This document shows positions 9,997 to 63,745 of a DNA stretch of 64,000 nt, one piece after another (position 1 is the stretch's first letter; every line of letters begins with the position of its first letter). The DNA is from Janthinobacterium sp. (GTDB taxonomy: Bacteria; Pseudomonadota; Gammaproteobacteria; Burkholderiales; Burkholderiaceae_D). Made by a program: the position numbers and the translations under genes. The notes beneath the pieces are model-generated. The model saw only the letters and a list, made by a program, of their open reading frames with translations. It ran no database searches and was not told the DNA's origin. Where the stretch lies: NCBI GenBank assembly GCA_003133225.1, contig PKWL01000098.1, positions 26,119-90,118 of the forward strand, given 5' to 3'.

Positions 9997-10060
9997 AAAT
10001 GCTTGGAGGCGGTCAAGCAGCATTCTTGACCGCAAGCGCTACGAGAAGAGCCGGTGAAAT

Positions 10061-10769: not shown

Positions 10770-10774
10770 TCCCG

Positions 10775-44045: not shown

Positions 44046-44050
44046 CAGAA

Positions 44051-44395
44051 CGGAGGTTGGTCTGCTCATTTCTATCGTCAAACAGATGAGTTTGTGACGC
44101 TTCAACATTAGGCCGCCACTGCTTTGCTTCCTCATTGGAATTCATGCTTCACACCCCACCATACAAATTCCATTCAACGGAATACAATTCCATTTGTTCT
44201 TTATTATATAGGTCTTCATAATTACGGCAAGGTAAATTTGTGCTGCGCCCCAGCAGTGACGTTATTGAGGCTGCCAACTCAGCGGCAATACAATGCAGTA
44301 GCGCCAACAGCGTGGGTTCAAAAGGGGCTTTTTGGGGTGACACGGACGAAGACCTCGGCAAATTCATTTACAGTTTTTTTGGCCACTCGCATAGG
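44051..44395. repeat. Long direct repeat, copy 1
   Basis: About 345 bp closely similar (estimated 85% by eye) and in the same orientation as 63402-63745. Both copies include GTCAAACAGATGAGTTTGTG, the promoter-operator module, and a tail ending in TTTTTTGGCCACTC. The pair brackets the 44.4-63.4 kb segment. The repeat carries no intact gene. Confidence 0.85.
44165..44230 (-). promoter_or_regulatory. Promoter-operator module, copy 1
   Basis: Minus-strand -35 TTGCCG (44230-44225), 16-nt spacer, -10 TATAAT (44208-44203), then TGGAAT, ATTCCG and TGGAAT half-sites between 44196 and 44165 around the expected start of transcription. Same design as 57690-57753 and 63514-63578. It points toward the CBS gene across IS and chemoreceptor debris. 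Confidence 0.65.
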
Positions 44396-44429
44396 TAACG
44401 GTAGCGTAATGCGTGAGGCCTTTTTCGAT

Positions 44430-45610
44430 GCGGTCTTCTCCCTTGATCATCATGTGGCGAGTTTGCGTGCAAGTGTCTGGTGGTGATTAATCCGCCGCGG
44501 CGTGCAGCCATCCGCCGGTAGAAGCCGCCTAGGGCGATTTTTTGCTTCGCACGAGGCTTTTGCGCCAGCATGCGAAAAGTCGTCCTGATTGGTTGCACCT
44601 GCGCTTGACGCGTCCCTTGTGTCGTTGTTGCCAGGCGCGAGATCCATCCGATGCGCCAATATGACCGGTCACGATCGGCCGAAATACCCACATCCAGGCG
44701 GTGAAGTGTTTGTCGCATGGCCAGATGCCTAGATTGGTGCCCACTTCGCCGATTAATTGCAGTACGTCATAATGCGTCAGTGTTGGTCGCTGCGTCAGAT
44801 CCTGTCCGCCGGACATTTGCGCCAGGATCTCGCGCAGTTTGGCGATATCCGGTGCGTTGACGCCGCCGCGCTTGGTGGTTTTAGATAGTGGCGGCCGCGT
44901 TTCGTCATACGGTGGTGGGACAGCGGCGATGCGCTTGTCGCGATTGGCGATAAGTTTCTGATGGTGGTCCCAAGATTGTAATGCCTGATTTAGGGCGAAG
45001 ACATGTTCGTTGGACCAGGAGCCACATGATGCCTCGATCGCGGCCAGCTTTTTCCTGCTCCGGATTTGCACGTCGCATAGCTCCAGCAAGGTTTGTCAGC
45101 GAGGAAAATGACATCATGTAGTTTGATGTCCGTGCACTCCAAAGCTTTTTGCATTAATTGCACGCAGCCGGCCGCCGTGGCCACGTGATCGGCAGTAGGC
45201 CGTGAATGTGCAGCGTGGCGCCCCACGGGCAGTCGGCCATGTCGGTCTTCCTGCCCGGCAGGTTGCGAGTTTGTCGCCCATTGACCATGCGTACTTCTAG
45301 ATGTGCTGCTTCCAGCACGCCGTCTAAGGGCAGCCAGTAGATGCCGGTTGCCTCCATGGCCACTAAATGGACGCGTTGTTCGAGTAGCCAGTCTCGCACC
45401 GTGGCAATTGTGAGGTGACGGTGCCGAATACTTCGGCGCGTCACGTCCGACCGATACATGCATGTGCTCGCAACCCTCGTCCACGAACGCGACAATGTGT
45501 CGAGTACCAGTAATTTTCTTGAAATAATGAACCTCTGCATTGGGTTATTGCAATGCGCGTTCACGGCGGGCCCCGGCCCAGTCACGTTCCAAGAACTATA
45601 AATCTCCCCA
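44430..45610 (-). mobile_element. IS110-family element, frameshifted transposase
   Basis: Upstream part: VAMEATGIYWLPLDGVLEAA, then VRMVNGRQTRNLPGRKTDMA. Downstream part in another frame: FALNQALQSWDHHQKLIAN, TKRGGVNAPDIAKLREIL, HYDVLQLIGEVGTNLGIW and HFTAWMWV. Final part after more shifts: GGFYRRMAARRGGLI. These are the DEDD and Tnp_20 regions of an IS110-type transposase with several frameshifts, so inactive. It sits beside the left copy of the long repeat. Confidence 0.8.
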
Positions 45611-45762
45611 GCGGGAAGCAAAGCTGACCAAAATAATGTGCGAATAATCGTGACCAGAACCAGTGTTCGCTATCCCTTGAGGAATGATAATCAAGAATTC
45701 AGCCCTCGATTTCGTCCGCTCTCTTAACAGAATTACTTCGGGTGAGTGCCGTCCGCGTCAAG

Positions 45763-47406
45763 TCAGGAAATGTGCGCATAACGCGTATCCGTGTTTAATG
45801 CCTGTCGCATCGGCGTAATATTTATTTCCCGATGAGCTACGACACTGTCTACCGGGCTGGATCGTTGTGCCGCGCCCAAAACGAAGACGCTTACTGCCTC
45901 CCTCAGCTTGATTGCCTGACCTTCAAGCGACTGGGCCTCGGCAGCCGCTTCTTCAACCAATGCTGCGTTCTGCTGCGTCACCTCGTCCATCTGGCTGATA
46001 GCATGATTAATATGCTCGATCCCGTGTCTCTGCTCCTCGGATGCCGAGGCGATTTCGCCGATGATGTCTGCCACACGACGCACGGCCTGGCATGCGTCAG
46101 CTGTGGTGCGCCCCACCTCTACCGCCTGGTTTGAACCTTCCTGTATGGTGTGCACCGATTTTTCGATCAGGATCTTGATTTCCTTCGCTGCAGCCGATGA
46201 GCGTTGCGCAAGATTACGCACCTCGGAAGCCACTACTGCAAAACCGCGCCCTTGCTCTCCCGCGCGCGCAGCTTCGACAGCCGCGTTCAAGGCGAGGATA
46301 TTGGTCTGAAAAGCAATGCCTTCGATCAACGCGGTGATCTCCGCTATTTTGCCGGAGCTGACGGCAATCTCGCCCATGGTCTGGACCATGCGGCCCACTA
46401 CCTGCGTCCCTTTATCCGAGACATCCGAAGCGTTCAGCGCCAGCATACTAGCCTGTCGCGCACTATCGGCATTCTGCCTAACCGTGGCAGTCAGCGTCTT
46501 CATGCTGGCGGCAGTTTCTTCGAGCGACGCCGCTTGCTGCTCGGTACGCGAGGAGAGATCCATATTGCCGGCCGCAATCTCTCTGGTCGCCGTCCCGATC
46601 GCCTCGGTACTGGTACGCACGTCCGTAACGATGCTGGATAAATTGTCATTCATGCGCTTCAAAGCACGTAGCAACTGGCTGGTCTCGTCACGCCCATTGG
46701 CCTCGATAGTAGAACTCAAATCGCCGGCGGAAACCGTTCCGGCAACCTTGATCGCGGCGGCAAGTGGTCGTGTGATCGAGCGTATCAAGGTCCAGCAAAT
46801 AACCGTCGCCATGCACACCAACAGCGTGCTCCAGAACATCACCCTTGTCACAATGCGTTCATAGATCGCGTGGCTTCTGTTGTACTCTGCCTGGGCCACA
46901 TCCATCTGCAATTGAACCAGCTGGTCAAGCGCCATCGAGACCGGTTCAAGTGCCGGGAACATATCGTGCGCGACGAAAGCCTGCAAACCTTGCATATCGT
47001 TTTTTTGCAGCAATTTAAGCAACTGACTGATCGCCGCATCGGCACGCTTCATCAGTGGCTCCTCTTGGGCCACGAGTTCCTTTTCACGATCGACCAAAAC
47101 GGTCGCCCGATAGACCCCCCACTCGTTGCCGATGCGCGTTCGCGCACCAGCAATTGACTGGATCGCTTCGGTGGGTGTCATCGTGCTGTCGCGCGCCTTG
47201 TACGCCGCATCCACTATGCTCACCGCGTAGCTAGCCGCCACAGCCTTGAGCTGGCCCAGACAAACGACGCGATCGTTGTAGATGGTTTCGATCGTCGCAT
47301 TGGCCACCTTCAGACGCAACAAGCCAAGGCCTGCAACGACTACGACCAATGTAAGTAGAACCGAGACCAACAGGGTCAGACGAATCTTGATACTGAATTT
47401 ATTCAA
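45763..47406 (-). CDS. Methyl-accepting chemotaxis protein
   Basis: 547 residues. Translation probably starts at TTG 47406 (GGAG 7 nt upstream). TM1 about 9-31, a periplasmic four-helix-bundle domain with MCP-type [14 protein letters not shown] near the start, TM2 about 187-207, HAMP, then the conserved tip [20 protein letters not shown] and a tail without a CheR-docking pentapeptide. It senses a periplasmic ligand and controls CheA. It precedes a porin gene (different unit) and a catabolic island, so its ligand may be an aromatic acid; this is inference. Confidence 0.92.
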
Positions 47407-48885: not shown

Positions 48886-48964
48886 TTTGTCTCCTGAATT
48901 AGCTGATCCGATGTCCCCCTGGAAACCGGAAATTCCTGTGCTGTATTACTTTGCCGTACCAATC

Positions 48965-49632: not shown

Positions 49633-52017
49633 TTATTGCCCTGAGCTGAAGGCCCCTGCATCGCGAAGTAGTTCGAATAGCCGTGGCGGCGGCATTGGCG
49701 CTTCGGTCAGGAAAATCCCCGTCTCGGATAATGCATCCTCTATCGCTGATATGATTGCGGCAGCTGCCGGAATCGTGCCGCCTTCCCCAGCGCCCTTGAC
49801 GCCAAGCGGATTCAATGGCGATGGTGATTCAAGGTGAATGATGTCCACGTTCGGAACGTCGCCCGCCATCGGCAATAAATACTCACCAAAATTTGTCGTA
49901 ATGGGTTGCGCCTGGTCGTCATAACGCATCCATTCCAGCGTCGCATTTCCGATACCGTGAGCTACCGCTCCCTGGATCTGGCCATCCACAATTAGCGGAT
50001 TGATTAAATTGCCGCAGTCATGCGCCATTACATAATGCAATATCTTGGTCTGCCCCGTTTCCCTATCTACTTCAAGCTCCACTACGGCCGTACCGTTGCA
50101 ATAAGTTGACTGGGATGGTAAAAAATACTGTGTATCTTCCAGCCCGTTGGTGATGCCTTTAGGAAAGGAGAAACCAGGCATGCCAAGCGAAATGCGGGCA
50201 AGTTCAGCGAAGGATCTTCTACGTTCTGGTTGACCGTCGACGAATGCGTAGCCGTCTTCCAGAACGATCTGCCCCGCATCACATTCAAGCAGAGACGCCG
50301 CGAGACGTTGAATTTTATCGCGCACGCCCTTCGCCGCAAGGTATACCGAATTGCCGGCGGTCACAGTGATGCGACTTGCAAACGTACCAATCCCCATCGA
50401 CACGGCGTTGGTATCCGCAGCAATCACATCGATATGATCCAGAGTCACACCTAGCTGATCTGCGCAAATCTGCATGAACGTGGTCTTATGGCCTTGGCCT
50501 TGCGACGATGCTCCAGTCAAAATGCTGATCCTGCCGTCCTGCTGAACACGCACTATGGCACCTTCGAATGGCCCGAGACCGGTCCCCTCGACGTAATTGG
50601 CCATGCCAATTCCAATGAAGCGACCAGCAAGCCGCGCAGCGGTTTTACGGGCCGGAAACCCGTTATATTCGGCTTTCGCCAACGCAGCCGCCTGGCAACG
50701 CGGATAATCACCGCTGTCGTAAATCATCGGCTTACCGTCGCGATAAATGAATCCAACTGAATAGGGCATTTGCTCTGCACGTACCAGATTGCGCCGGCGG
50801 ATCTCTGCCCTGTCCAAGCCTAAAGTGCGGGCCGCCTTATCGAGTATTCGTTCCATCGCAAACACTGCCTGTGGCCGCCCCGCCCCGCGCACTGGCGCGG
50901 TAGGTCCCTTGTTTGTAAACACTACTTTCAAATCAACGTCCATCGCAGGAACAATGTACGGTCCAGGGGTTGTGGTGACAGCGATGTAGGGCATGATGAT
51001 TCCCCACGGCAAATAGGCACCGTTATCATGCGTCATCTCAAGTTTAATGCCTAGAATACGGCCGTCTTCCGTTAGTGCAACTGCAATATCCCACCACTGG
51101 TCACGTTCCTGTGCCGCGGTAAGGAAATGCTCGCGCCGGTCCTCGATCCATTTGACGGGTTTGCCAATTTCCCAAGCCGCTATAGCTACCAATGCCTCTT
51201 CAGGATAAAAAATCCCTTTAGGACCAAACCCGCCACCGACATCATTCGTGATGACACGCAAGCGCTCCGGATGCCATTCCAATATATCGACCAAAATCTT
51301 TTTATCCAGATGTGGCGCCTGGCCGGAGGCCCATACTGTAAGTTGACCGGTGACTGCATGATATTCGGCAGCATAACCCCGTGTCTCCATCGGATGCGCG
51401 GAACCGCGATTCTGCCAAAAGGTTTCGCGCACAATGTGCGCTGCCGATGCAAACGCCGTACTGGTTTCACCGAACCCCATCTTGACATGCGCTGCAAGAT
51501 TATCCGAAATCGATGAATGCATCGGATGAGCTCCCGGCTTCAGGGCCGATGCGCAATCGGCCACTATCGGCATATCCTCATATTCGATCTCGACTAGGGT
51601 GCAGGCGTCTTCCGCGATGTAGCGGTTGTCAGCGACAATAAATGCGACCGGATCGCCGACGCAACAAACTTCGGTAGAAGCAAGCACTTCTTGCGTCATT
51701 ACATTTCGGATTGCCGGGTTAGGCACCAGCATGGGCATACGCCTGCGCGCTGAAGCGGGCAGGTCAGCGTGCAAGTATACGGCATGGACTCCAGGTAGCG
51801 CGCGCGCCGCGGACGCGTCGATCGAGACAATGCGCGCATGCGCATGTGGGCTCCGTAGCACCGCAGAATGTAGAACGTCTTTCAGACTCAAATCATCGAC
51901 GAACTGGCCTTGCCCGCGCAGCAGCTTTTCGTCCTCGGTACGTTGTATGCGGGAACCAATGTATTGGCCGGGCTTTTTAGCCGATATTGGAACTATCGTA
52001 TCCATAATGTCTTTCAT
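49633..52017 (-). CDS. Molybdenum hydroxylase large subunit (xanthine dehydrogenase family)
   Basis: 794 residues. Molybdopterin-cytosine-dinucleotide subunit of the XDH/CoxL superfamily: VGGGFGPKG (Moco site), APVRGAGRPQAVFAMER, GQGHKTTFMQICADQLGV and the C-terminal active-site Glu in LGVKGAGEGGTIPAAAA. The form I CO-dehydrogenase motif (AYxCSFR) is absent, so it is not a CO oxidiser; it most likely hydroxylates a heteroaromatic or aromatic carbon with water as oxygen source. Its ATG overlaps the small-subunit stop (ATGA). Last gene of the unit. Confidence 0.92.
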   Translation of the reverse strand: MKDIMDTIVPISAKKPGQYIGSRIQRTEDEKLLRGQGQFVDDLSLKDVLHSAVLRSPHAHARIVSIDASAARALPGVHAVYLHADLPASARRRMPMLVPNPAIRNVMTQEVLASTEVCCVGDPVAFIVADNRYIAEDACTLVEIEYEDMPIVADCASALKPGAHPMHSSISDNLAAHVKMGFGETSTAFASAAHIVRETFWQNRGSAHPMETRGYAAEYHAVTGQLTVWASGQAPHLDKKILVDILEWHPERLRVITNDVGGGFGPKGIFYPEEALVAIAAWEIGKPVKWIEDRREHFLTAAQERDQWWDIAVALTEDGRILGIKLEMTHDNGAYLPWGIIMPYIAVTTTPGPYIVPAMDVDLKVVFTNKGPTAPVRGAGRPQAVFAMERILDKAARTLGLDRAEIRRRNLVRAEQMPYSVGFIYRDGKPMIYDSGDYPRCQAAALAKAEYNGFPARKTAARLAGRFIGIGMANYVEGTGLGPFEGAIVRVQQDGRISILTGASSQGQGHKTTFMQICADQLGVTLDHIDVIAADTNAVSMGIGTFASRITVTAGNSVYLAAKGVRDKIQRLAASLLECDAGQIVLEDGYAFVDGQPERRRSFAELARISLGMPGFSFPKGITNGLEDTQYFLPSQSTYCNGTAVVELEVDRETGQTKILHYVMAHDCGNLINPLIVDGQIQGAVAHGIGNATLEWMRYDDQAQPITTNFGEYLLPMAGDVPNVDIIHLESPSPLNPLGVKGAGEGGTIPAAAAIISAIEDALSETGIFLTEAPMPPPRLFELLRDAGAFSSGQ

Positions 52018-52532
52018 GTATTCACCTCTTGGGCAATTACAACAACGCTGCTTTTTCCTCGCATTCTGCTCGCAGCAAGGAGAGCCGCGTCAACGATTGA
52101 CTTATATCCGGTGCAGCGGCAAATATTGCCGCTAATTGCCTCGCGCACTTCCGCCTCGGTAGGATCCAGATTTTCGCTCAGCAGCTCGGTCAACGTAGTT
52201 AACATGCCGGGCGTACAAAAGCCGCATTGCAAACCGTGACATTCGCGGAAGGCTTGTTGCAGCTCGGAGAGGACTCCGTCAGCGGCCGCCAGTCCTTCGA
52301 TTGTGGTGACATGGCATCCATCAGCCTGAACTGCCAGCATCAGGCAGGAACGCGCGGTATTTCCATTCAATAAAATGGTGCATGCGCCGCACACTCCGTG
52401 TTCGCAACCGTAATGTGTCCCGGTCAACCCTAGATCGTGACGCAAAAAATCGCCAAGTGTCCGGCGGGTATCGACCTCGCGCTGATAAGGCTGATTGTTT
52501 ACTATGACGTTAATTATTCGCTTATCCATCAT
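52014..52532 (-). CDS. Molybdenum hydroxylase 2Fe-2S subunit
   Basis: 172 residues. The N-terminal plant-type ferredoxin cluster is CEHGVCGACTILLNGNTARSC and the C-terminal cluster is CGFCTPGM with NICRCTGYKSIVDA. It passes electrons from molybdenum to FAD. It overlaps both neighbours (stop/start ATGA type) as expected for a tight stoichiometric complex. Confidence 0.95.
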   Translation of the reverse strand: MMDKRIINVIVNNQPYQREVDTRRTLGDFLRHDLGLTGTHYGCEHGVCGACTILLNGNTARSCLMLAVQADGCHVTTIEGLAAADGVLSELQQAFRECHGLQCGFCTPGMLTTLTELLSENLDPTEAEVREAISGNICRCTGYKSIVDAALLAASRMRGKSSVVVIAQEVNT

Positions 52533-53404
52533 TTGTTCCCTAAACGTGCTCGTTGGAATGCAACGCGCATCGCGCGCGCGGTAAGAACCTTAACTAGGTG
52601 ACGCCGGTAATCAGCGGAATTGTGCGCATCTTCCATGACATCGTCGAGCGATTCTGCAATACTCATTGCTCGAACGACCGCTCCCTCATCCGCTTCCATC
52701 CCGACCAGCTCAAGTTCTGCAGTAGTCAGCCTAACCGGCCCAGCGCTGATGCCGCATATGGAGATTACCAACCGGGTAATACGGCAACTCGCGTCGACAG
52801 TGGCCAAAACCGCGACGGCGACAATCGCGTAGTCTCCGTGGCGCCTCGAATATTCGAAAAAGGCCGAGCCGTGGCCTTTCGGCCATATGGCGAGGTGGGC
52901 GCCAGTCATTAACTCGTCTTCAGCCAATGCAGGCGTCATGTACATCGAGGTCCATTCGGCCATGGGTATCTGCCGCGTGCCGTTACGGCTTGCCACCTCA
53001 ATCACACCATCTAGAGCAGCTGTAAAGCAAGGCTGTTCGGAAGATGGATCGAGATGACACAGGCTGCCGCCGTAGGTGCCGCGATTGCGGATTTGACGAT
53101 GAGACACATGCGAATATGCTTCCACAATTAGCGGGGCAAACTCTCTGGCCAGCGGCGACGTTTCCAACGCACGCTGCCGTGTCATTGCACCGACGAAAAG
53201 GCAGTTTTCGCGTCGTTCGATTGAAGCCATCTCCTTAATCTGGTTTAAGTCGATAAGATGGTCCGGCATAACGAAACGAAAGTTCATCATCGGCATTAAC
53301 GATTGCCCGCCGGCGAGCACCTTGGCGTTATCCAAGGTGGCAACAAGTTCCAGCGCCTCGTGCAATGTCGTGGGTGAATAATATTTAAATGGTGCAGGTT
53401 TCAT
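52529..53404 (-). CDS. Molybdenum hydroxylase FAD subunit
   Basis: 291 residues. CoxM/XDH-B type: LAGGQSLMPMMNFR for FAD binding, HRQIRNRGTYGGSL for the second FAD contact and ISICGISAGPVRLT in the C-terminal domain. Transfers electrons from the iron-sulfur subunit to an acceptor. It overlaps the small-subunit gene by 4 nt; a 130-nt gap separates it from the CoA-transferase gene. Confidence 0.93.
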   Translation of the reverse strand: MKPAPFKYYSPTTLHEALELVATLDNAKVLAGGQSLMPMMNFRFVMPDHLIDLNQIKEMASIERRENCLFVGAMTRQRALETSPLAREFAPLIVEAYSHVSHRQIRNRGTYGGSLCHLDPSSEQPCFTAALDGVIEVASRNGTRQIPMAEWTSMYMTPALAEDELMTGAHLAIWPKGHGSAFFEYSRRHGDYAIVAVAVLATVDASCRITRLVISICGISAGPVRLTTAELELVGMEADEGAVVRAMSIAESLDDVMEDAHNSADYRRHLVKVLTARAMRVAFQRARLGNK

Positions 53405-53533
53405 GGCTTAGTCCGTTATGCGTTCAATAGAGAATGCCGCGTTGTTATTTGCGCCAAAAAAATTCGGAAATAGTTCCGTCGCCAGATGGCAAAAAGCGAC
53501 TCTAACGAGCGCGGAGCACTTAGCACGTCCATG

Positions 53534-54844
53534 TCAGTTTTCCACGGGAATTCTCGGATGGTCTAAAAAAGTATCGTTTGCCAAGTCGCTATTGGCCGCT
53601 CGCTTACCTGGATTCTGAAATATCGCTTTCGCCTCTAGTAGACTTTCAATCTCAGTAGGTGACAAACCCAGCATCGTGTCGAGTACATGCGCTGTGTCTT
53701 GTCCCAGGCGCGGCGGATATTTATGCGGTGTTATATCTTCACCATCAAATTTAATTGGATTTCCGGCTACCCTAATCAAATTGCCATGCTCATCTTTGAG
53801 ATTGAGCACCATGTCGCGCTGTTGAACTTGTGGGCTTTTCAGAGCGCGATCAATGGGATTGACGACGCCGACAGGGATTCCAGCGGAAAGGAACTGATCC
53901 ATCCAAATTTCAGCCGTGTTCAAAAGAAATGCCTGTTCGAGGATTGGCGCAAGCGCTTCCTGATTGGCCAATCGTTCACGATTGGTTTTAAAGCGGGGGT
54001 CGTTGATCAAATGCGCGACACCAAGCAGTTGCGCCATTTCCCGCCACATTTTTTCGGTATTGGCCGTCACAACGACACTGAGTCCGTCGGATGCCTTGAA
54101 CGTGCGGTATGTAGGGATCGAATTATGCGCACTGCCCTGGCGTCCCGGGACTACACCGGAATGTAGATAATACGCAGCTTGATATGACAACATTGCCACC
54201 TGACAGTCAAACATGGCAACATCGACCAACCGACCCTTACCGCTTGCATGGCGTTCCTGTAATGCCGCCAGAATTCCGATAACGCCAAACATACCGGCCG
54301 ACAGATCCGCCAGCGGTATTCCAGAACGAACTGACTCACCATCGGGTTCACCAGTAAGGCTCATTCCACCGGACAGCGCTTGCACCACCATATCGTATGC
54401 GGGCCAGTCGCGCCAAGGGCCATCCTGTCCAAATCCACTGATACTGCACCAAATTAGCGAGGGCTTCAGCTTTGACAATTCGGCGTAATCGATACCCAGA
54501 CGCGCAAGTACACCCGGCCTAAAATTTTCGACAACGATGTCACACTTCAAAGCGAGGTCTCGCACAACGCGAACGCCTTCCGGCAATTTTAGATCTGCCA
54601 CGACATTCATTTTGTTACGGTTCACACTAAGGTAGTAGACGCTTTCGTCACATACGAAATGCGGTGGAATAGTGCGGGACAACTCGCCACTTGGCGGCTC
54701 AACTTTGATGACTTCCGCGCCAAGATCTGCCAACACCATGGTTCCGAATGGTCCGGATAAAAATTGAGTGAGATCCAAGACCCTCAGTCCTGCCAAGGGG
54801 CCGGATTTCTTATTTGACTGAACTGAATTGTTCACGCCGTTCAT
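53534..54844 (-). CDS. Family III CoA-transferase (CaiB/BaiF)
   Basis: 436 residues from ATG 54844, whose first bases overlap the IclR gene stop as ATGA. Signatures: LAGLRVLDLTQFLSGPFGTM at the N-terminus, VVENFRPGVLARLGIDY, and catalytic Asp in PAYDMVVQALSGGMSLTGEP. It moves CoA from a donor thioester to a carboxylic acid without ATP, thus activating the pathway acid or an intermediate. Coupling to the regulator gene suggests that the two are made together. Confidence 0.92.
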   Translation of the reverse strand: MNGVNNSVQSNKKSGPLAGLRVLDLTQFLSGPFGTMVLADLGAEVIKVEPPSGELSRTIPPHFVCDESVYYLSVNRNKMNVVADLKLPEGVRVVRDLALKCDIVVENFRPGVLARLGIDYAELSKLKPSLIWCSISGFGQDGPWRDWPAYDMVVQALSGGMSLTGEPDGESVRSGIPLADLSAGMFGVIGILAALQERHASGKGRLVDVAMFDCQVAMLSYQAAYYLHSGVVPGRQGSAHNSIPTYRTFKASDGLSVVVTANTEKMWREMAQLLGVAHLINDPRFKTNRERLANQEALAPILEQAFLLNTAEIWMDQFLSAGIPVGVVNPIDRALKSPQVQQRDMVLNLKDEHGNLIRVAGNPIKFDGEDITPHKYPPRLGQDTAHVLDTMLGLSPTEIESLLEAKAIFQNPGKRAANSDLANDTFLDHPRIPVEN

Positions 54845-55710
54845 TTTTTTAACTCCTGATTTGCGAAAGTTCCGCCTGGGGTTGGAATTTGGAGGCATCC
54901 AAGCGCCTTCGAAAGTGCATTGGCATGTCGCATGACAGCATCGGAAAGTTTTGGCAGCAACGATTGCTGATAGCGGACATCGGGAATGGTATAGCCAAGG
55001 GAACCGATAACGGACGCGCGAGCATTGAAGACTGGAGCACAGATTCCAACTGCTCCTTTGATCCTCTGTCCAAATGTCAGTGCAAATCCGTTCTCTCTGA
55101 CCTCCGCCAACTCTTTAAATAGGTCGGCACGCGCCGGTGAGGCAACTTGATCGGCCTCGCGCCTATGTATGCGATCAATCTCCTCTTCCTTCATCCAGGC
55201 TAGAATCGACAAGCCAGAAGCCCCCGTAACCAAAGACTGCAGTTGATTGAGCGTGATCCTGTAAGAAAGCAATGCTTGGGATTCCGCGGTCGCCGCAAAT
55301 ATCAACTTCCCTTGCTGCGAATCAAGTAGTGCTAAGTATGCACTTTCGTTATTTTCGTGCGCAGCATCCTGCAGAAAAGGCAATGCGATCGATCGCACCG
55401 GCATGCGGGTGTAGACCGACGCGGCAATACGGTAAAATTCAAGACCAGGTCGATACATTCGCAAAACATCGTCGTGTTCAACCACGCCTTCCCCTGCCAG
55501 TAAATCCAACAAGCGGTGCACTGTGCTGGGCGGGAGCGCAAGACGTTGCGCCAAATTGCTGATACTGACATCGCCATCTGCATCGGCAAGTGCGCGCATC
55601 ACGCGCACTGCTCTAGCCACGGTTCCAGTACCGCGGTCCGCATCCACCTCATCATCGGCGGACGCGGCACTACGCTTGTTGGAGGGATTTATATTTTTTT
55701 GCTTCGACAT
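54841..55710 (-). CDS. IclR-family transcriptional regulator
   Basis: 289 residues. Winged helix at about 30-85 (VRVMRALADADGDVSISNLA then PPSTVHRLLDLLAGEGVV) and a C-terminal effector-binding domain with ASGLSILAWM and GICAPVFNARASVIGSLGYT. IclR regulators such as PcaR, PcaU and PobR control beta-ketoadipate genes. It is the only regulator gene in the island and the best candidate to bind the GGAAT/ATTCC operators at 57.7 and 63.5 kb. Translationally coupled to the CoA-transferase gene; a 173-nt gap separates it from the thiolase gene. Confidence 0.92.
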   Translation of the reverse strand: MSKQKNINPSNKRSAASADDEVDADRGTGTVARAVRVMRALADADGDVSISNLAQRLALPPSTVHRLLDLLAGEGVVEHDDVLRMYRPGLEFYRIAASVYTRMPVRSIALPFLQDAAHENNESAYLALLDSQQGKLIFAATAESQALLSYRITLNQLQSLVTGASGLSILAWMKEEEIDRIHRREADQVASPARADLFKELAEVRENGFALTFGQRIKGAVGICAPVFNARASVIGSLGYTIPDVRYQQSLLPKLSDAVMRHANALSKALGCLQIPTPGGTFANQELKK

Positions 55711-55883
55711 TTGAGTCTTTCATATTTGCAGGGGTCGGTATGGGCTATGAGACGCCTTAGTTTTTAATCCGACCTGCCGCTTGGAACTCTTCTAAAATAA
55801 TAGTAGTAACGTATTCCGATCGCGATCCACGCAAGCTCATCGAATAACGAAATATCATGGCACAGCCTCACTGTCTCATTCTG

Positions 55884-57038
55884 TCAGATACCGAATGCGT
55901 GAATACAGCAAGCCCCATGATCAAAGCCTGCAGTGCCACCACCGGTGATGTGGGTAAGGCCGATTTTAGCGTTCGTCACTTGGCGCTGGTCGCAACGTTG
56001 CTGTAACTGTCGAACAATTTCAACGATTTGTGCAACTCCACTAGCGCCTACTGGATGGCCTTTCGATAAAAGTCCGCCGCTAGGATTAACAACCGTTCGG
56101 CCACCAAGAGAAGTTACTCCATCTCGCAGCAACTTGACAGCCTCACCAGGACCGCATAAACCGAGTGCTTCGTAATACAAAAGTTCCGCAATCGAAAAAG
56201 CGTCGTGGCACTCCAGCACGTTAATATCTTCCGGCCCTAATCCGATTTCTTCATATAATTCAACCACGCAACGCATGGTGATTTCCGGAGTTTTCAAATC
56301 GCGGAATCCGCTTACATACTTGCCCGAAGTTAAATGGGAGCCCAGCACACGAACTGGCTGCCTAGAGAACCGTTCGGCGAGGCCGGTGGGTCCAATAATG
56401 ATAGCGGCGGCACCGTCGCCGGTCGGACAACACTGCAATAGGGTAAGCGGATCGGCAATTTGGCGCGACGCGAGGACCTCCTCAACCGTGGTCGCGGTCC
56501 GGAACTGGGCATACGGTGTAAGCATGCCGTGCTTGCGCGATTTGACCGATACTAAAGCCAAATCTTTTGCTTCATAGCCGTAATCGTACATATAACGACG
56601 CGCTCGCATCGCGTACAAGCCCGGCATGACCATGCCATTGACCACTTCGACATCCTCGTTATCGAGAGGTAATGTGCCGCCACCCAATCGGCTCAGTTTT
56701 TCGACGCCGACTACCATCGCAAAATCGATTAAGCCGCTTGCCACTGCAATCCATGCTTCGCGAAAAGCAGTTGCACCCGATGAGCATGCATTTTCAGTGT
56801 TAACAATGGTTATCCCGCTCAGTCCGGTCTCGCGGGCTATCCGTTGTCCGACCATGTTGCCCGACAACGCCGAACCACAATAGATCGATTCAATTGACTC
56901 GCGAGGAAGCCCAGAATCACGCAATGCTTCCAGCACCGCAGGTCGCGCCAGCAGCGGAACAGAAAGCTCCGGAAATTTTCCAAACGGGACGATCCCGCTG
57001 CCATATACCGATACGCTTCTAAAATTAGGATGGCTCAT
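55884..57038 (-). CDS. Thiolase-like protein (SCP-x/lipid-transfer type)
   Basis: 384 residues. Thiolase fold with Cys in VNTENACSSGATAFREAW, HD box in VLECHDAFSIAELLYY, and GGLLSKGHPVGASGVAQIVE. The second Cys of classical thiolases is replaced in HITGGGTAGFDHGAC. This set is typical of SCP-x-like thiolases that work with a DUF35/OB-fold partner, here encoded 21 nt upstream. Thiolytic or retro-Claisen cleavage of a branched or cyclic acyl-CoA is likely; in related pairs a retro-aldol reaction is catalysed. Confidence 0.88.
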   Translation of the reverse strand: MSHPNFRSVSVYGSGIVPFGKFPELSVPLLARPAVLEALRDSGLPRESIESIYCGSALSGNMVGQRIARETGLSGITIVNTENACSSGATAFREAWIAVASGLIDFAMVVGVEKLSRLGGGTLPLDNEDVEVVNGMVMPGLYAMRARRYMYDYGYEAKDLALVSVKSRKHGMLTPYAQFRTATTVEEVLASRQIADPLTLLQCCPTGDGAAAIIIGPTGLAERFSRQPVRVLGSHLTSGKYVSGFRDLKTPEITMRCVVELYEEIGLGPEDINVLECHDAFSIAELLYYEALGLCGPGEAVKLLRDGVTSLGGRTVVNPSGGLLSKGHPVGASGVAQIVEIVRQLQQRCDQRQVTNAKIGLTHITGGGTAGFDHGACCIHAFGI

Positions 57039-57059
57039 AAATATCTTTAATCTTTAACC

Positions 57060-57491
57060 TTACGCTGCGTCCAAATAATAGTGGAACAAAGGCGATGTTT
57101 CATCGCTCGATGCTAACTGCTCAACAACTAGCTTGACAGGTTGATCCGGTGTCCATCGTTTTACGTCGCTGTTAGCCAACTTGGCAAACACGCGCACGCC
57201 ATCGGCCAGGTCGACATACCCGATGGCATATGGCACCTCCCATACCTTCGGCGCTACATGGATCACAGTAAAACTATAAAGGCCGCCTGTAGCCGATAAC
57301 GGGAAGTTCGATACCGCTTCGGATAAGCAGAACGGGCAAAGATCATCGCGCGGAAAAAAACGAGCTGAGCAGCTTTCACAACAAGTCCCGACCAGTCGAA
57401 GCTGTTCATCTACTTTGACTACTTCAGTGCTGTCGATCAACCGTCCCATCCTTGGCACATATGGAACATTGTGTGTAGTTTGGTAATTCAA
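57060..57491 (-). CDS. DUF35/OB-fold acyl-CoA-associated protein
   Basis: 143 residues. Rubredoxin-like zinc ribbon (GTCCESCSARFFPRDDLCPFC) followed by an OB fold (SFTVIHVAPKVWEVPYAIGY). Such proteins form complexes with SCP-x-like thiolases; the thiolase gene follows directly. First gene after the promoter-operator at 57690-57753, giving a leader of about 230 nt. Confidence 0.88.
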   Translation of the reverse strand: MNYQTTHNVPYVPRMGRLIDSTEVVKVDEQLRLVGTCCESCSARFFPRDDLCPFCLSEAVSNFPLSATGGLYSFTVIHVAPKVWEVPYAIGYVDLADGVRVFAKLANSDVKRWTPDQPVKLVVEQLASSDETSPLFHYYLDAA

Positions 57492-57689
57492 GGGTTATCT
57501 CCATTTAAAGATTTTTGAAAATTTTTTCGTACTCAAACCAGAACAATGCTGCAGAGCAACGATTCGGCGCTTGCTACATCCATACCAATTCCGGCGACAA
57601 GAAATGGTTTGGTGGCATTAATACCGCCAAAGGGGCGAATTGCCGTCGATCCCAGCGATTGAGCAGCCTTCTTGGCAACTCACTTTAAG

Positions 57690-57753
57690 AATTCCGGTAA
57701 CCGGAATTACATTCCATTAGTGTATATTATAGAGAACTCTACTATTAAGGCAA
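57690..57753 (-). promoter_or_regulatory. Promoter-operator module, copy 2
   Basis: Minus strand -35 TTGCCT (57753-57748), 16-nt spacer, -10 TATAAT (57731-57726), then TGGAAT (57717-57712 region) and the perfect 19-bp palindrome AATTCCGGTAACCGGAATT (57690-57708). The operator lies at about +1 to +30, a repressor position. It drives the DUF35 and thiolase genes, perhaps on to the regulator. The rest of the 57492-57792 gap has no gene. Confidence 0.75.
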
Positions 57754-57792
57754 GGTAAACTCATGCTGCGTTGCAGAAATTCTGGCTTCCGG

Positions 57793-58536
57793 CTAGCGCG
57801 GCGGAACCTGATCGCGCATGGAGGTCATCGCGGTCGATACCGCCGACCCAGCCAGTTCGCTGGCAAGGGAGAAATCAGGTATCACCACCTCTCGGAAATA
57901 GGTTTTGATCGCCGCCAAAGCAAGGCGATCGCGCGAGCCGATCCATTCAGCAATCGCATTACCACGCTGTTCTAGTCCTTCGAAAGGAATTACTTCGGCT
58001 ATGAATCCCCATTCACGCGCGGTCTTGGCATCAATGCTTGATGCTAGATAGACCATATGAGCGGCCGCCTTTGGCGGTACCTTGTAGCGTAATACTGACA
58101 ATACAAGCGTAGGTGGCACATTCTTCTCAATTTCCGGAAGGCTGAAATTTGCAGATTCGGAGGCTATCGCAAGGTCACAAGCTGCAACTAATGCGCAGCC
58201 CAGTCCGTTTGCATCGCCCTGAACTTCGGCCATCACCGGAATTTCACTTTCATGCATCGCCCGGTAAACTTCGAGAATGGGATCAGCCATTGTCCGGCGG
58301 ATTTCAGCCGTATTCAGTGACTTAGCTGGCGGCTTACCCGATGCTCGCCCACCACAGAAACTAGCTCCGCTTGACCGAATGCGGATGAGCTTGAATGATA
58401 TGTCGCGTCCGGCCTCGCGTATTACCCCAGCAAGTTCGCGAATGGCCTCGAGGCTCAATGTATTATCCAATTCGGGCTGCGCTAACGTGATGCGGCATTC
58501 GAAACCGTGCTGCGATACTGTGAATTCAGTTGTCAT
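57793..58536 (-). CDS. Enoyl-CoA hydratase/isomerase family protein
   Basis: 247 residues. Crotonase fold: SGASFCGGRASGKPP for the first oxyanion strand and VQGDANGLGCALVAACDLAI for the second. The usual catalytic Glu in the GG-x-E position near residue 125 is not obvious; LPEIEKNVPPTLVLSV follows. Could be a hydratase, isomerase or ring-opening hydrolase acting on a CoA thioester. Last gene of the transcription unit from 63.5 kb, just before the second promoter. Confidence 0.85.
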   Translation of the reverse strand: MTTEFTVSQHGFECRITLAQPELDNTLSLEAIRELAGVIREAGRDISFKLIRIRSSGASFCGGRASGKPPAKSLNTAEIRRTMADPILEVYRAMHESEIPVMAEVQGDANGLGCALVAACDLAIASESANFSLPEIEKNVPPTLVLSVLRYKVPPKAAAHMVYLASSIDAKTAREWGFIAEVIPFEGLEQRGNAIAEWIGSRDRLALAAIKTYFREVVIPDFSLASELAGSAVSTAMTSMRDQVPPR

Positions 58537-58780: not shown

Positions 58781-59398
58781 TTATTGGCGATTTCCCGTGC
58801 CATGGAACCGGGCGAAGAATCGCCGGATCGAATGCCACAGCACGTTGCGCATCAGAGCCCATGCATCAAGCGGTACGATCGGAAACGGCGCAGCAGGCGG
58901 AGTTGCATTTTCTACATCAAGGCGAATCGATGGTTGATCGGCAGCGATGCGAGCGGAAAGATTTTTCGAAAACTGATTTAGAAGCTGCCGCGACAACGCC
59001 TCGATCATGCCTATCCCGCGGCCAAATTGTGCGACTGAACCGAAAAGGTTGGCTTCGCATACGACAGCGACTTTGCTTTTGGCGTCGGCATCTTCAACCA
59101 CGCCGACCCGGATATTGGCATCAACTCCGCCGCGACCTTTGGTATCTGTTCCGGTCGCCGTAATCAGGACTATCCGTTCAGCATCATTCTGTTCGGTAAT
59201 GTTAAACTTTCCTGCGAAGTTAAAAGTCAAGGGCCCAAGTTTGACGGTGAAGGCCGCCTTATAACTTCCATCGGGCTGTTTCTCTTTCAGTTGCACGCCT
59301 GGAAAACACGGCGCGGCGCGTTCAATGTCAGTCAACCATCGCCACGCCGTATCTGGCGATGCATCTAGATTGAATGATGATGGAATTGTAATTGCCAT
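58781..59398 (-). CDS. CoxG-like SRPBCC protein
   Basis: 205 residues. N-terminal ~145 residues match CoxG/polyketide-cyclase-like SRPBCC proteins (SSFNLDASPDTAWRWLTDIE, then PCFPGVQL). CoxG is needed to anchor or assemble CO-dehydrogenase-type molybdenum hydroxylases at the membrane. Its presence with an XdhC-like gene supports dedicated assembly of the hydroxylase at 49.6-53.4 kb, although it is in the other transcription unit. Gap 58537-58780 contains nothing recognised. Confidence 0.85.
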   Translation of the reverse strand: MAITIPSSFNLDASPDTAWRWLTDIERAAPCFPGVQLKEKQPDGSYKAAFTVKLGPLTFNFAGKFNITEQNDAERIVLITATGTDTKGRGGVDANIRVGVVEDADAKSKVAVVCEANLFGSVAQFGRGIGMIEALSRQLLNQFSKNLSARIAADQPSIRLDVENATPPAAPFPIVPLDAWALMRNVLWHSIRRFFARFHGTGNRQ

Positions 59399-59494
59399 GA
59401 TGTCTCCTGCGGCCCAAATTGGTTACATTTAGCGTGGGCCAGATTGTTGTATGATTCGTTGCGGGAAGGTCGGTATTCAAAACTCGGCTTTCCG

Positions 59495-60295
59495 TTAACG
59501 TCCTGCCTGCTCTAAAAATGTGTCGAACGCTGGAAGAAACGCCGATGGCGTTTCGAACGCACCAAAATGGGACGCTGCAGGTACTATGACAAGCTTTGCC
59601 TTTGGTATCGCATTTGCAAGTTGCCTTGAAATTGCTGGAGGAGCAGCAATGTCAGCGCCTCCCGTGATCACCAAGGCGGGAGCTTGCGTGGTCTGAAGCT
59701 TTTCGAGGTTGTCCATTGCTGCAATCGCCTCCCAATTTGCGCTCCAGCTAAACCAGTCTCCCTTCAACAAATCTGCGCGGCAGCGTTCCAGCAAATCTGG
59801 ACGAGGTGAATCAGGTAAGAACCAACGGGCTAGCGATTCTTCCACCACTTCGCTCATTTCGCCATCCCGGCTAACGTTGCCGCGGGAACGGATGCTTTCG
59901 CGGATGTGGTCGGGGAATGAGCCGGCCGTGGCGCAAAGGATCATCGCCTTGACCTTATTAGGGGCTTCGATGGCTAGTCGCTGCGCAACCATACCTCCCA
60001 TTGAAACCCCAATAATCGTCGCCGCCTCAATTCCCTCTTGATCCAGCACACCCGCGACATCAGTTGCATGCGCCGAAAGTGTAATGGGTTCTCTCACTCG
60101 ACTAGAATCGCCATGGCCACGCAAGTCTATCGTCAACACCTGATAGTTCTTTTGCCAAACTAGAACATAGGGGTCCCACCAAGTCCGATCGATGCCGATG
60201 GGATGCAACAAAACGAGTTTTGGGCCGTCCCCTCTTTTTGTGTACGCGATGCGGCCGGAAGGAATGTCGCTAAAGAAATTTTGGGACATTTTCAT
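59495..60295 (-). CDS. Alpha/beta hydrolase, PcaD-like
   Basis: 266 residues. Oxyanion region LLHPIGIDRTWWD, nucleophile Ser in GVSMGGMVAQRLA, acid in VITGGADIAAPP, His in PAASHFGAF. The closest familiar type is 3-oxoadipate enol-lactonase (PcaD/CatD), which often sits next to a PcaC-like gene, as here: its start overlaps the CMD gene stop (ATGA). In this setting it may hydrolyse a ring-opening lactone or enol lactone formed after hydroxylation. Confidence 0.87.
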   Translation of the reverse strand: MKMSQNFFSDIPSGRIAYTKRGDGPKLVLLHPIGIDRTWWDPYVLVWQKNYQVLTIDLRGHGDSSRVREPITLSAHATDVAGVLDQEGIEAATIIGVSMGGMVAQRLAIEAPNKVKAMILCATAGSFPDHIRESIRSRGNVSRDGEMSEVVEESLARWFLPDSPRPDLLERCRADLLKGDWFSWSANWEAIAAMDNLEKLQTTQAPALVITGGADIAAPPAISRQLANAIPKAKLVIVPAASHFGAFETPSAFLPAFDTFLEQAGR

Positions 60296-60729
60296 ACCCC
60301 GACAGGCAAGTGCGAATTGGTTGTCGCCCCACTTTGGTTCGCCGGCCGATATTTCGCAATAACGTCTTTCGCACGACGCAAGCCTTCCGCTGCAATTGGA
60401 ACACCCGCGTACACGCCAGCTTGCAACAATACTTCCGCAATTTCCGCGTCGCTTACGCCATTGTTAATCGCGCCCAAGGCATGCACTTCAAACTCATGCC
60501 ATCGCCCCATGACGGCCAGCATTGCGAGATTAAGCATACTTCTAAGCGGACGTGAGAGCTGCTCGCGATTCCAGACGTTCCCCCAACAAAAATCTTCAGT
60601 GAACTCGAGAAACATTTCGTCGAACAAAGTGGGGGGTGCATCCCCAACCTTAACGTAGGTGTCGCCAAGCACTTCGCGGCGAATTTTTGCCCCGATAGCG
60701 CGGCGCGAGATAGGATCGAGTTCTTGCAT
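60292..60729 (-). CDS. Carboxymuconolactone decarboxylase family protein, PcaC-like
   Basis: 145 residues. PcaC-type helical fold: DEMFLEFTEDFCWGNVWNRE, SMLNLAMLAVMGRWHEFEVH and LLQAGVYAGVPIAAEGLRRA, all close to 4-carboxymuconolactone decarboxylases. PcaC removes CO2 from 4-carboxymuconolactone. With the PcaD-like hydrolase it forms a coupled pair, but no PcaB or PcaGH is present, so the true substrate may be another lactone or carboxylate. Confidence 0.87.
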   Translation of the reverse strand: MQELDPISRRAIGAKIRREVLGDTYVKVGDAPPTLFDEMFLEFTEDFCWGNVWNREQLSRPLRSMLNLAMLAVMGRWHEFEVHALGAINNGVSDAEIAEVLLQAGVYAGVPIAAEGLRRAKDVIAKYRPANQSGATTNSHLPVGV

Positions 60730-60866
60730 ATTGTTACCTCACATTGGACAAGCCGAGCCTGGCTTGTTGGATTGTTTAATGGCACGATTGCTAACCAAAT
60801 ATTAAATTCTCACGCCGCATTAATCGTGCATATATGGCAGGTGAAGACCTGAGTAGTATGAAAGCA

Positions 60867-61886
60867 TCAGGCATATTGCCTCGATGTGTTTCTGTTCCTC
60901 TGTGCAGCGTCCTTTGCCGCATCAACGCGGACTTCATCGGGTAAGGTCACGTCATTTTTTGCGGCGGTCAATTCCGCCAGGATAGAGATCGCAATTTCGG
61001 CTGGTGTTTTGCTTCCGATATAAAGACCAATCGGGCCGTGCAGATTAGCCAGTTGCACGTCGGTCAGGTCGAACTCTCTCAGACGTTCACGGCGCTTGGC
61101 ATTGTTCAACCTTGATCCGATTGCGCCGACGTAGAACGCGTCGGATTTCAGAGCTTCCATCAACGCCAAATCATCCAACTTAGGATCGTGCGTCAGTGCG
61201 ACTACTGCACTGCGGCGATCAAGGTTCATTTTGAGCACTTGATCATCTGGCATCTCGCGAGTCACTTCCATGCCGGCCACCGACCATCCCTCACGATATT
61301 CTTCGCGAGGATCGCAAACAGTCACGTGATAATCCATGCCCAGCGCGATCTGTGCAAGAAAGCGTGATAACTGTCCGGCGCCGATAATCAACAGTCGCCA
61401 ACGTGGCCCATGGATCGTCGTCAGCATTTTTTTCGAAATCTGCAAGCCTTGGCCGGCGCCTGCAGTCGCAAGCGTCACTTCTCCGGATAACAGGTTCAGT
61501 CGGCGCGCCACCAGTTCATGGTTGGATAGGCGCTGCAACAATTCAGCGATTTGACTGCGCTTTGATAACGGCTCAAGTACAAGCTGAATCGTCCCACCAC
61601 ATGGCAGCCCGAACCGATGTGCTTCGTCCGATGTAATTCCATAAGTGACAATTTCAGGCTGCTTCAACTCAATCCCTTCAGAGCGCACCCGGGCAATCAA
61701 ATCATCTTCGATGCAACCACCTGAGACTGATCCGACTACTTGCCCGTTTTCGCAAATGGCCAAGGTCGCTCCTTCTGGCCGTGGACTGGAGCCCCAAGTC
61801 TTAATGACGGTAACAAGTTCACAGCAGCGACCATCGCGGATCCACTCATTGCAGGTTTTTAGAACTTCAAGGTCAACGCTGTCCAT
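60867..61886 (-). CDS. XdhC/CoxI-family maturation factor
   Basis: 339 residues. N-terminal XdhC_CoxI domain (VIKTWGSSPRPEGATLAI, GSVSGGCIEDD) and C-terminal Rossmann domain (LLIIGAGQLSRFLAQIALG, TVCDPREEY, VGAIGSRLNNAKRRERL). XdhC proteins bind molybdenum cofactor, help sulfurate it and insert it into XDH-type enzymes. It surely serves the molybdenum hydroxylase of this island. Confidence 0.92.
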   Translation of the reverse strand: MDSVDLEVLKTCNEWIRDGRCCELVTVIKTWGSSPRPEGATLAICENGQVVGSVSGGCIEDDLIARVRSEGIELKQPEIVTYGITSDEAHRFGLPCGGTIQLVLEPLSKRSQIAELLQRLSNHELVARRLNLLSGEVTLATAGAGQGLQISKKMLTTIHGPRWRLLIIGAGQLSRFLAQIALGMDYHVTVCDPREEYREGWSVAGMEVTREMPDDQVLKMNLDRRSAVVALTHDPKLDDLALMEALKSDAFYVGAIGSRLNNAKRRERLREFDLTDVQLANLHGPIGLYIGSKTPAEIAISILAELTAAKNDVTLPDEVRVDAAKDAAQRNRNTSRQYA

Positions 61887-61965
61887 AATTGTTCCTTTAC
61901 ACCCTATTTGGTAAGTTCCGACCCAGCGGCTTGCTCAAGAAAAATAATTATTGCGGCTCTGGTAC

Positions 61966-63261
61966 TCAATCGGGCAGCTGCATACCTTTTGTTTCTGGTC
62001 CAAACCAAATCGCCACCAGCCCCACGACCATGAAAAGTGAAACGGCGGCGGCTGCATTTGGGAATGACCCAAACTGATGCAGCATGACACCGATCGAAAG
62101 GGGGCCAAACCCCGTGAAAATGCGGGCCATGTTCCAGCAAAAGCCTTGCCCTGTGGCACGCACTCTGGTTGGAAACAATTCGGGCAGATAAGCTGCGAAA
62201 GTACCGAAACCGCCGATCACAAAATAGCCATACACCGGAGCGAACCACAATATGGCGCTAATCTCTCGCACATATAAAAACAGGTACAGCGACGATACGA
62301 GGGCGCCACTGTAGAATATGAAATAGCACCACCTCCGTCCAAGCACATCGGCGAAATACATTAACGTGAGATAACCTACAGTCGCACCAACCATCATCAA
62401 CATAAACGCATAGCTAACAACATCATTAACGTTCACGCTAGCCACGTTGCCAGAAAGCTGATGGATCCATGAGGGCAACAGCGTCAGCCCGCCCCAACTG
62501 CCAATCATGGCTGCCGAAGCAACAAGGACACCAACAACGGTGCGTCTGAGCAAACCATTCTTAAATATTGCAAGAAATGTACTGGCCCCCGACTCAGACG
62601 CTCCATCTTTTTCCGCGGCCTCTTTGATACGTGTCCACGGCTCAGGCTCTTTGATGAAGCGCCTCACCAACACGGTCAGAATGGCTGGCGTAGCGCCTGC
62701 GGCAAGCACCCATCGCCAGCCCATGGATCCAAGTAGCAGATTGTCTAGTCCAGCTGCGAAGAACCCGAGAGCGAAAGCAATTTGCATGAACTGGATAGCC
62801 TTCGCGCGGGACTTGGTAGGCCAGGACTCAGCGACGAGAGCCGCCCCTGCGGCCCATTCACCTCCAATGCCGAATCCCGCGATGGCTTGGAAAAAAGCCA
62901 GTTGCTCCCAATTCTGAGCGAATGCACTTAAGCCAGTAAATACCGAGTAAACGAGGATCGTAATCGCCATGATGCGCGCACGGCCATATCGATCTGCCGC
63001 CACACCGAAAAGTATTCCGCCAAAGCCCCATGCAAAAAGCTTAATTGCTATGATTAATCCACCCACCTTCGCAATTTCCATTGGATCGTGGCTACCGATC
63101 AGTTGAGATACGCATGGAACCAGAATCAACGTGAACAGATTCAGGTCCATCGAATCGAACATCCATCCTAGAAACGCTGAACCCAGCGTCAATATTTGGT
63201 ATCGCGTAACACGCGTTTTGCTGCGGGCGCCAATGGCGGCCACCGTTCCAATGTTGTTCAA
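61966..63261 (-). CDS. MFS carrier, aromatic acid:H+ symporter (AAHS)-like
   Basis: 431 residues, 12 TM. N-terminal FLGWMFDSMDLNLFTLILVP carries the conserved Asp pattern of AAHS carriers such as PcaK, and GVAADRYGRARIMAI is the MFS loop motif; GIGGEWAAGAALVAESWP in TM5. It imports an aromatic or heteroaromatic acid with protons. First gene of the transcription unit from the promoter at 63514-63578, with a leader of about 280 nt. Confidence 0.9.
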   Translation of the reverse strand: MNNIGTVAAIGARSKTRVTRYQILTLGSAFLGWMFDSMDLNLFTLILVPCVSQLIGSHDPMEIAKVGGLIIAIKLFAWGFGGILFGVAADRYGRARIMAITILVYSVFTGLSAFAQNWEQLAFFQAIAGFGIGGEWAAGAALVAESWPTKSRAKAIQFMQIAFALGFFAAGLDNLLLGSMGWRWVLAAGATPAILTVLVRRFIKEPEPWTRIKEAAEKDGASESGASTFLAIFKNGLLRRTVVGVLVASAAMIGSWGGLTLLPSWIHQLSGNVASVNVNDVVSYAFMLMMVGATVGYLTLMYFADVLGRRWCYFIFYSGALVSSLYLFLYVREISAILWFAPVYGYFVIGGFGTFAAYLPELFPTRVRATGQGFCWNMARIFTGFGPLSIGVMLHQFGSFPNAAAAVSLFMVVGLVAIWFGPETKGMQLPD

Positions 63262-63401
63262 CTCAGTCTCCTAATTTTTATATATCTATGCTTCATGAAC
63301 CTGCCAAACATGTCCTTCGACCATCTAAAATCGGCCGCGGACCTACTTTCATCTCACATTGCTGTGAGCGGTCGCGCTCCAAGGCCGTTACCAAAAAATG
63401 G

Positions 63402-63745
63402 AGGCCGGTCTACTCATTTCCATCGTCAAACAGATGAGTTTGTGACGCTCCAACAGTAGGTCGCCATGGCTTGGCTTTCTCATTAAAATTCACGCTTCAC
63501 ACCCCACCCTTTAAATTCCGTTCAGCGGAATAAAATTCCATTTGTGCTTTATTATATAGGTCTGCATAATTACGGCAAGGTAAATTTGTGCTGCGCCGCA
63601 GCAGTAACGTTATTGAGCTGCCAACTCAGCGGCAATACAATGCGTGGCTGGCGAGGTTTAAAATGGGGCCTTTTGGGGGGGGACACGGGCGTAGACCTTG
63701 GCAAATTCATCTACAGTTTTTTGGCCACTCTCATAAATTTACCGA
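63402..63745. repeat. Long direct repeat, copy 2
   Basis: Matches 44051-44395 in the same orientation with scattered mismatches and small indels. It contains a run of eight G at 63675-63682 where copy 1 has four. No intact gene inside. Confidence 0.85.
63514..63578 (-). promoter_or_regulatory. Promoter-operator module, copy 3
   Basis: Minus-strand -35 TTGCCG (63578-63573), 16-nt spacer, -10 TATAAT (63556-63551), then TGGAAT, ATTCCG and CGGAAT half-sites (63541-63514). It points to the MFS/XdhC/PcaC/PcaD/CoxG/hydratase genes. Confidence 0.75.

Follow-up and report, generated by a model that had tools for sequence, protein, structure and literature searches.

A putative three-box IclR operator at two predicted promoters of a molybdenum-hydroxylase island in Janthinobacterium sp.

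We analyzed a 64,000-nucleotide stretch of a Janthinobacterium sp. genome (assembly GCA_003133225.1, contig PKWL01000098.1, positions 26,119 to 90,118 of the forward strand; hereafter the window), which carries a catabolic island encoding a molybdenum (Mo) hydroxylase and a single regulator of the IclR family. The sequence modules at 57.7 and 63.5 kb are very probably two sigma-70-type promoters that carry the predicted operator of this IclR protein (Table 1). That the island IclR reads a small regulon of its own is well supported by sequence comparison, because the operator accompanies the regulator and its neighboring genes in three lineages and because exact copies occur nowhere else in the genome. 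A first-pass annotation of the window had proposed this regulon and had placed two copies of the module at the heads of the island's two gene groups, and we agree on both counts; its third proposed use, at 44.2 kb, is not supported, which leaves two predicted live uses.

Results

The module has the form TTGCC[G/T]-N16-TATAAT, 9-10 nt, TGGAAT-N3-ATTCCG-N5-[C/T]GGAAT and is present in three copies, all on the minus strand, as first annotated. Its joint pattern (TTGCCK-N16-TATAAT-N9/10-TGGAAT-N3-ATTCCG) matched the window at 44178-44230, 57702-57753 and 63526-63578, and matched 0 of 100 shuffles. The spacing, described earlier as conserved, is so to within one base, with 10 nt between TATAAT and TGGAAT in two copies and 9 nt in the third. 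Searched separately, the promoter part TTGCCK-N16-TATAAT (≤1 mismatch) gave four window matches (the three modules and a place at 50009 with one mismatch; shuffle mean 0.33), and the operator GGAAT-N3-ATTCCG-N5-YGGAAT (≤3 mismatches) gave three, all exact (shuffle mean 0.24). Across the 5,743,645-base genome, GGAAT-N3-ATTCCG-N6-GGAAT (≤2 mismatches) was found in five places, namely the three window copies, which are exact, and two places with two mismatches (reversed control: 0); a search for many unrelated genomic copies thus returned no exact operator outside the window. The shorter ATTCCG-N5-YGGAA is common and unspecific (nine distinct genome places, three of them the window sites; control: 4), so specificity resides in the three boxes jointly.

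Among relatives, 399 genomes of the order were scanned for the regulator and for the operator pattern. An IclR match at 1e-35 was obtained in 13 of them: the source genome, ten genomes of g12 (a genus of another family, with IclR proteins 44-50% identical to that of the island), G133 and G243. The eleventh g12 genome, G180, is 84% complete and had no detected IclR. The operator pattern, written from the window and seven g12 genomes, matched 12 of the 399 genomes (reversed control: 0), comprising the source genome (three sites), all ten IclR-bearing g12 genomes (one site each) and G071, whose single match lies inside a 901-aa reading frame and is chance-like; it was absent from G180. The three g12 genomes unseen when the pattern was written (G337, G366 and G393) all matched. 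Among the unseen IclR carriers at 1e-35, three of five matched, compared with four of 391 otherwise (hypergeometric 4e-6, not corrected for relatedness).

The gene block OB-thiolase-IclR-coenzyme A (CoA)-transferase, in which IclR is the sole regulator gene common to the three lineages, recurs in g12, with all four genes in one stretch in 8 of 10 genomes; the OB gene of G366 runs to a contig end, a contig end truncates the CoA-transferase gene of G140, and the thiolase gene of G337 is split over two contigs. No Mo-hydroxylase match was found in the g12 stretches read. The operator precedes the OB gene in eight of the ten (G047, G096, G140, G217, G248, G278, G308 and G337). By eye, TTGC occupies a single position in all ten g12 sites, 17 nt ahead of a -10 that overlaps the first box, and each site has two palindromes (left ATTCC-like, right ATTCCG-N5-CGGAAx) with centres 20 bp apart. 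The promoter register is kept: judged in the same way, the 57.7 copy has its -10 at the g12 distance from the operator and TTGC one base nearer, and the 63.5 and 44.2 copies keep TTGC at the g12 distance, with the -10 shifted one base away from the operator. Over the ten g12 sites, mean information per column reached 1.53 bits across the 16 nt to the left of the pattern and 0.97 bits across the -35/-10 zone, both of which lay outside the search pattern, compared with 0.49 and 0.59 bits for the two outer flanks. The 25-nt operator itself reached 1.45 bits per column over 14 sites; as the pattern had selected 13 of these, the value is in part circular, and more weight is given here to the columns outside the pattern.

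Variovorax paradoxus VAI-C (CP063167.1) has a homologous island, as measured for the large Mo-hydroxylase subunit (69.8% identical) and IclR (44%), with the other genes matched by annotation. The annotated row comprises SRPBCC, OB-fold, thiolase, three Mo-hydroxylase subunits, IclR, CoA transferase, GMC, enoyl-CoA hydratase and hydrolase genes. It shares gene kinds and operator with the window and the g12 block, and it differs from the window in that aldehyde dehydrogenase and ABC transporter genes come first and the Mo genes lie between thiolase and IclR. The gap before the row's first gene, which encodes the aldehyde dehydrogenase, holds a three-box site and another palindrome; these are the only places within two mismatches of ATTCCG-N5-CGGAAT in 38 kb, and they account for two of the three ATTCCG-N5-YGGAA matches in the 2.48-Mb record.

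The predicted operator combines a complete palindrome, ATTCCG-N5-CGGAAT, with a single box three bases upstream of it, which is the right box of another palindrome, near-complete in relatives. TATAAT ends 10-11 nt ahead of the first GGAAT box, so transcription would start just before the operator and IclR, bound as a dimer pair just downstream of the -10, would cover about +5 to +30, which makes repression by start blockage the likeliest mode. Bound IclR would thereby block transcription of both gene groups until a pathway acid, or the CoA thioester of that acid, released it, and would limit its own supply because iclR sits in the 57.7 group.

The same protein might instead read the sites as an activator, so that the island would be off without inducer-bound IclR. 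PcaU and PobR, which are IclR regulators with three-box sites, act as activators, and the island protein has some score against the model that covers them, though under its cut-off (see below). We consider this improbable, because in both the window and g12 the complete palindrome is placed downstream of the -10, a position that suits blocking rather than recruiting polymerase, and because the -10 in the window matches TATAAT perfectly.

Several observations weigh against a repressor-operator pair of this kind. The operator pattern is absent from G133 and G243, which carry IclR at 1e-35 (no OB, thiolase or CoA-transferase match was found in the stretches read from either), and the ten g12 genomes represent one genus, not ten events. 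In G366 the operator is found on another contig, ahead of a TctC-type receptor gene. In G393 some 7 kb separate it from the OB gene and its block, which lie downstream, and it heads same-strand frames, among them NAD-binding, aconitase-type and DinB-type genes (of six frames scanned, two lacked a Pfam match). In a phylum-wide sample, IclR at 1e-35 was found in 1 of 398 genomes, the source genome, so the breadth of the system is small. Within the window, all three copies show erosion of the upstream palindrome's left box, leaving its right box alone, and the operators lie about 210 and 260 nt from the gene start, farther than usual; by eye, site centres lie ~31 (G308), 49 (G047), 64 (G096), 96 (G217) and 30 nt (Variovorax) from it elsewhere.

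The first-pass annotation inferred selection from all three copies, on the ground that their flanks differ. This stands for 57.7 versus 63.5, where the core is 54/71 identical and the flanks 64/142 and 43/88 (about 45-49%), and it fails for 44.2 versus 63.5, which lie inside one ~340-bp direct repeat (~19.35 kb apart, 86% identical) with 131/151 aligned bases identical upstream (10 gap columns), 66/72 in the core and 96/113 downstream, so that the core is barely better conserved than its flanks. Since the 44.2 and 63.5 copies share one old duplication, they are not independent evidence of selection; a conserved core amid unlike flanks is seen in the 57.7 versus 63.5 comparison only. That all copies are alike merely through recent common descent of DNA carried with the island, with neither selection nor a regulator involved, is accurate for the duplicated pair and scarcely credible for the module as a whole, given that 57.7 and 63.5 retain the core alone and that the site recurs in g12 and Variovorax.

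The 44.2 copy is probably a duplicated leftover that drives nothing useful, as no intact gene follows closely behind it. A degraded IS110-type transposase lies upstream (one Pfam match just over cut-off), the debris downstream includes 29 residues that share 58.6% identity with the chemoreceptor at 45763-47406 and, by eye, an apparent transposase end, and the next Pfam-matching reading frame encodes a CBS-domain protein (42960-43532). Of 149 genomes searched, only the source genome itself yielded the ~340-bp block. Past the operator, both duplicates contain a similar 27-codon reading frame (63397-63505 and 44049-44150) that resembles a lost gene start; a 35-residue query with it had no plasmid match.

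The island protein belongs to the IclR family by PF09339 (54.7 bits, cut-off 22) and PF01614 (66.6 bits, cut-off 24), and falls below the PcaR/PcaU/PobR model TIGR02431 (73.4 bits, cut-off 284.75) and the BhcR model NF045644 (105.5 bits, cut-off 350). Its recognition helix reads LPPSTVHRLLDLL, compared with LPASTVHRLLDLL in eight of ten g12 proteins, LPASTVHRLLELL and LPASTVHRLLERL in the other two, and LPISTMHRLLELL in Variovorax; the IclR carriers that lack the site have LPRSTVHRLLATL (G133) and LPRSSVHRLLATL (G243). Agreement of this pattern with a common operator is only suggestive.

The inverted boxes could also work as an RNA hairpin, since ATTCCG and CGGAAT can pair and are located in the 5' leader, or could be read by another DNA-binding protein. 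We regard either as highly improbable. Over 15 sites, 13 of them chosen by a pattern that fixes most of these letters, the inner pairs never co-vary (four of the six pairs are invariant, and one is G-C in 14 sites and G-T in 1) and the outermost pair is unpaired in 10 (8 A-C, 1 A-G, 1 C-T), so a DNA site suits the data better than a hairpin; the common block offers no other regulator gene as a reader.

Comparison with known systems

The design of the module fits an already known kind of IclR site. In a published IclR survey (PMC8222616), three-box sites are given for 32 orthologous groups and tandem sites with centres 18-22 nt apart for 94, and for most sites the centre falls between about -20 and -80 relative to the gene start. 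The 20-nt distance in g12 lies within the tandem range; the window distances given above lie outside the usual positions. Like the three-box operators of PcaU, PobR and HmgR (PMC8222616), the module has alternating boxes, with one wide (group 1) pair and one putative narrow (group 2) pair. By eye, it fits the survey's group-1 variant WTTYCRYW3RYGRAAW at 16/17 positions in the 63.5 and 44.2 copies and 15/17 in the 57.7 copy, with all outer box letters fitting, and its third box (TGGAAT-N3-ATTCCG) agrees with the group-2 pair TGRAACA-N1-2-TGTTYCA in direction and length and differs in the inner C/G and last A (PMC8222616). The site of GenR of Corynebacterium glutamicum, ATTCC-N7(5)-GGAAT, has nearly identical half-sites and spacing, as judged from the site sequences; unlike the module, it is listed as a single palindrome and serves 3-hydroxybenzoate/gentisate use in an actinobacterium (PMC8222616).

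The module boxes ATTCCG/CGGAAT are unlike the GTTCG-type boxes of PcaU, and the island IclR scores far under the cut-off of the model for that group. For the OB protein and thiolase of the island, the best NCBIfam models are those of the benzoylsuccinyl-CoA thiolase BbsAB, with scores far under the cut-offs (70.7 of 250 bits and 358.2 of 750 bits, respectively). A limited literature search found no paper on an operon joining IclR, CoA transferase, thiolase and OB-fold genes, a result that bears on that search only.

Island genes, origin and plasmid relatives

The 63.5 promoter faces the genes from the MFS transporter to the enoyl-CoA hydratase, and the 57.7 promoter those from the OB-fold protein to the Mo-hydroxylase subunits (Table 1). 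From gene order and strand, each set is predicted to form one transcript. The Pca and Bbs names denote likenesses that score under NCBIfam cut-offs.

Table 1. Predicted features of the promoter-operator modules, the island and the flanking duplication, in window coordinates
Feature	Position	Strand	Basis
Promoter TTGCCG-N16-TATAAT, faces transporter group	63551..63578	-	pattern match
Putative three-box operator GGAAT-N3-ATTCCG-N5-CGGAAT, 63.5 copy	63515..63539	-	exact match
Promoter TTGCCT-N16-TATAAT, faces OB-thiolase-IclR group	57726..57753	-	pattern match
Putative three-box operator, 57.7 copy	57691..57715	-	exact match
Promoter sequence of duplicate copy, no intact gene closely downstream	44203..44230	-	pattern match
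Putative three-box operator, duplicate copy	44167..44191	-	exact match
MFS transporter, first gene behind 63.5 promoter	61966..63261	-	profile match
XdhC-type maturation factor	60867..61886	-	profile match
Carboxymuconolactone decarboxylase family, PcaC-like, below NCBIfam cut-off	60292..60729	-	profile match
Alpha/beta hydrolase, PcaD-like, below NCBIfam cut-off	59495..60295	-	profile match
CoxG family protein	58781..59398	-	profile match
Enoyl-CoA hydratase family protein	57793..58536	-	profile match
OB-fold (ChsH2/BbsA-like) protein, first gene behind 57.7 promoter	57060..57491	-	profile match
Thiolase	55884..57038	-	profile match
IclR-family regulator, proposed operator reader	54841..55710	-	profile match
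Family III CoA-transferase	53534..54898	-	profile match
Mo-hydroxylase FAD subunit	52529..53404	-	profile match
Mo-hydroxylase [2Fe-2S] subunit	52014..52532	-	profile match
Mo-hydroxylase large subunit	49633..52017	-	profile match
Duplication copy A, ~340 bp	63397..63735	-	repeat comparison
Duplication copy B, ~340 bp, 86% identical	44049..44393	-	repeat comparison

The island was probably acquired, given its lower G+C (0.52-0.53 over 42000-63261 versus about 0.58-0.60 over the first 42 kb of the window) and the absence of its IclR (E ≤ 1e-20) from all 36 other genomes of the genus in the scan. The same scan matched 3 of 61 genomes, namely the source genome, G047, and G041, which has two distant IclR proteins (28-29%); two distant IclR proteins from a genome-contig scan (27 and 21% identity) were not used further. 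A plasmid search with the island DNA at 49633-57900 gave no close match. The two ~340-bp direct repeats flank the island, the 44.2 repeat adjoining the transposase remnant, and recombination between them could delete or amplify it.

A plasmid of Mycobacterium branderi (L062) has annotated OB-fold, thiolase, IclR and CoA transferase genes at 8302-11946 in the order of the window, and this order in an actinobacterium suggests that the block is old or widely exchanged. No good palindrome was seen ahead of its OB gene, and the whole record had 0 matches to ATTCCG-N5-YGGAA. Three places within one mismatch of TTCCG-N5-CGGAA occur in 20.7 kb, one in a gene and two in gaps (2542 and 4863), against ~0.6 expected by our own arithmetic with equal base frequencies; these are a weak lead. 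V. paradoxus VAI-C has another Mo-hydroxylase gene group (L061, CP063168.1; large subunit 48% identical to that of the window) near insertion sequence elements; TetR and LysR genes lie close by, and the stretch read contains no IclR. Two further records were rejected: Salipiger (L063) had one match (≤1 mismatch) inside a P450 gene with different neighbors, and the unannotated Neorhizobium record (L064) had no match at ≤1 mismatch and one narrow pair only.

Discussion

On a broader reading, whose chances we judge to be evenly balanced, an uncharacterised IclR group tied to the OB-thiolase-IclR-CoA-transferase block (in the window, g12, V. paradoxus with inserted Mo genes, and M. branderi) would read its own ATTCCG three-box operator. 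In the window organism the operator-promoter would have been copied, capturing the second gene group (transporter, XdhC and PcaC/PcaD-like proteins), so that the regulon would have grown by duplication of its switch.

The predicted pair of regulator and operator offers a testable handle on an uncharacterised Mo-hydroxylase/CoA-thioester pathway, for which V. paradoxus VAI-C provides a named isolate in which the substrate could be sought through the compound that releases IclR. The module may also exemplify the reuse of one promoter-operator for a second gene group.

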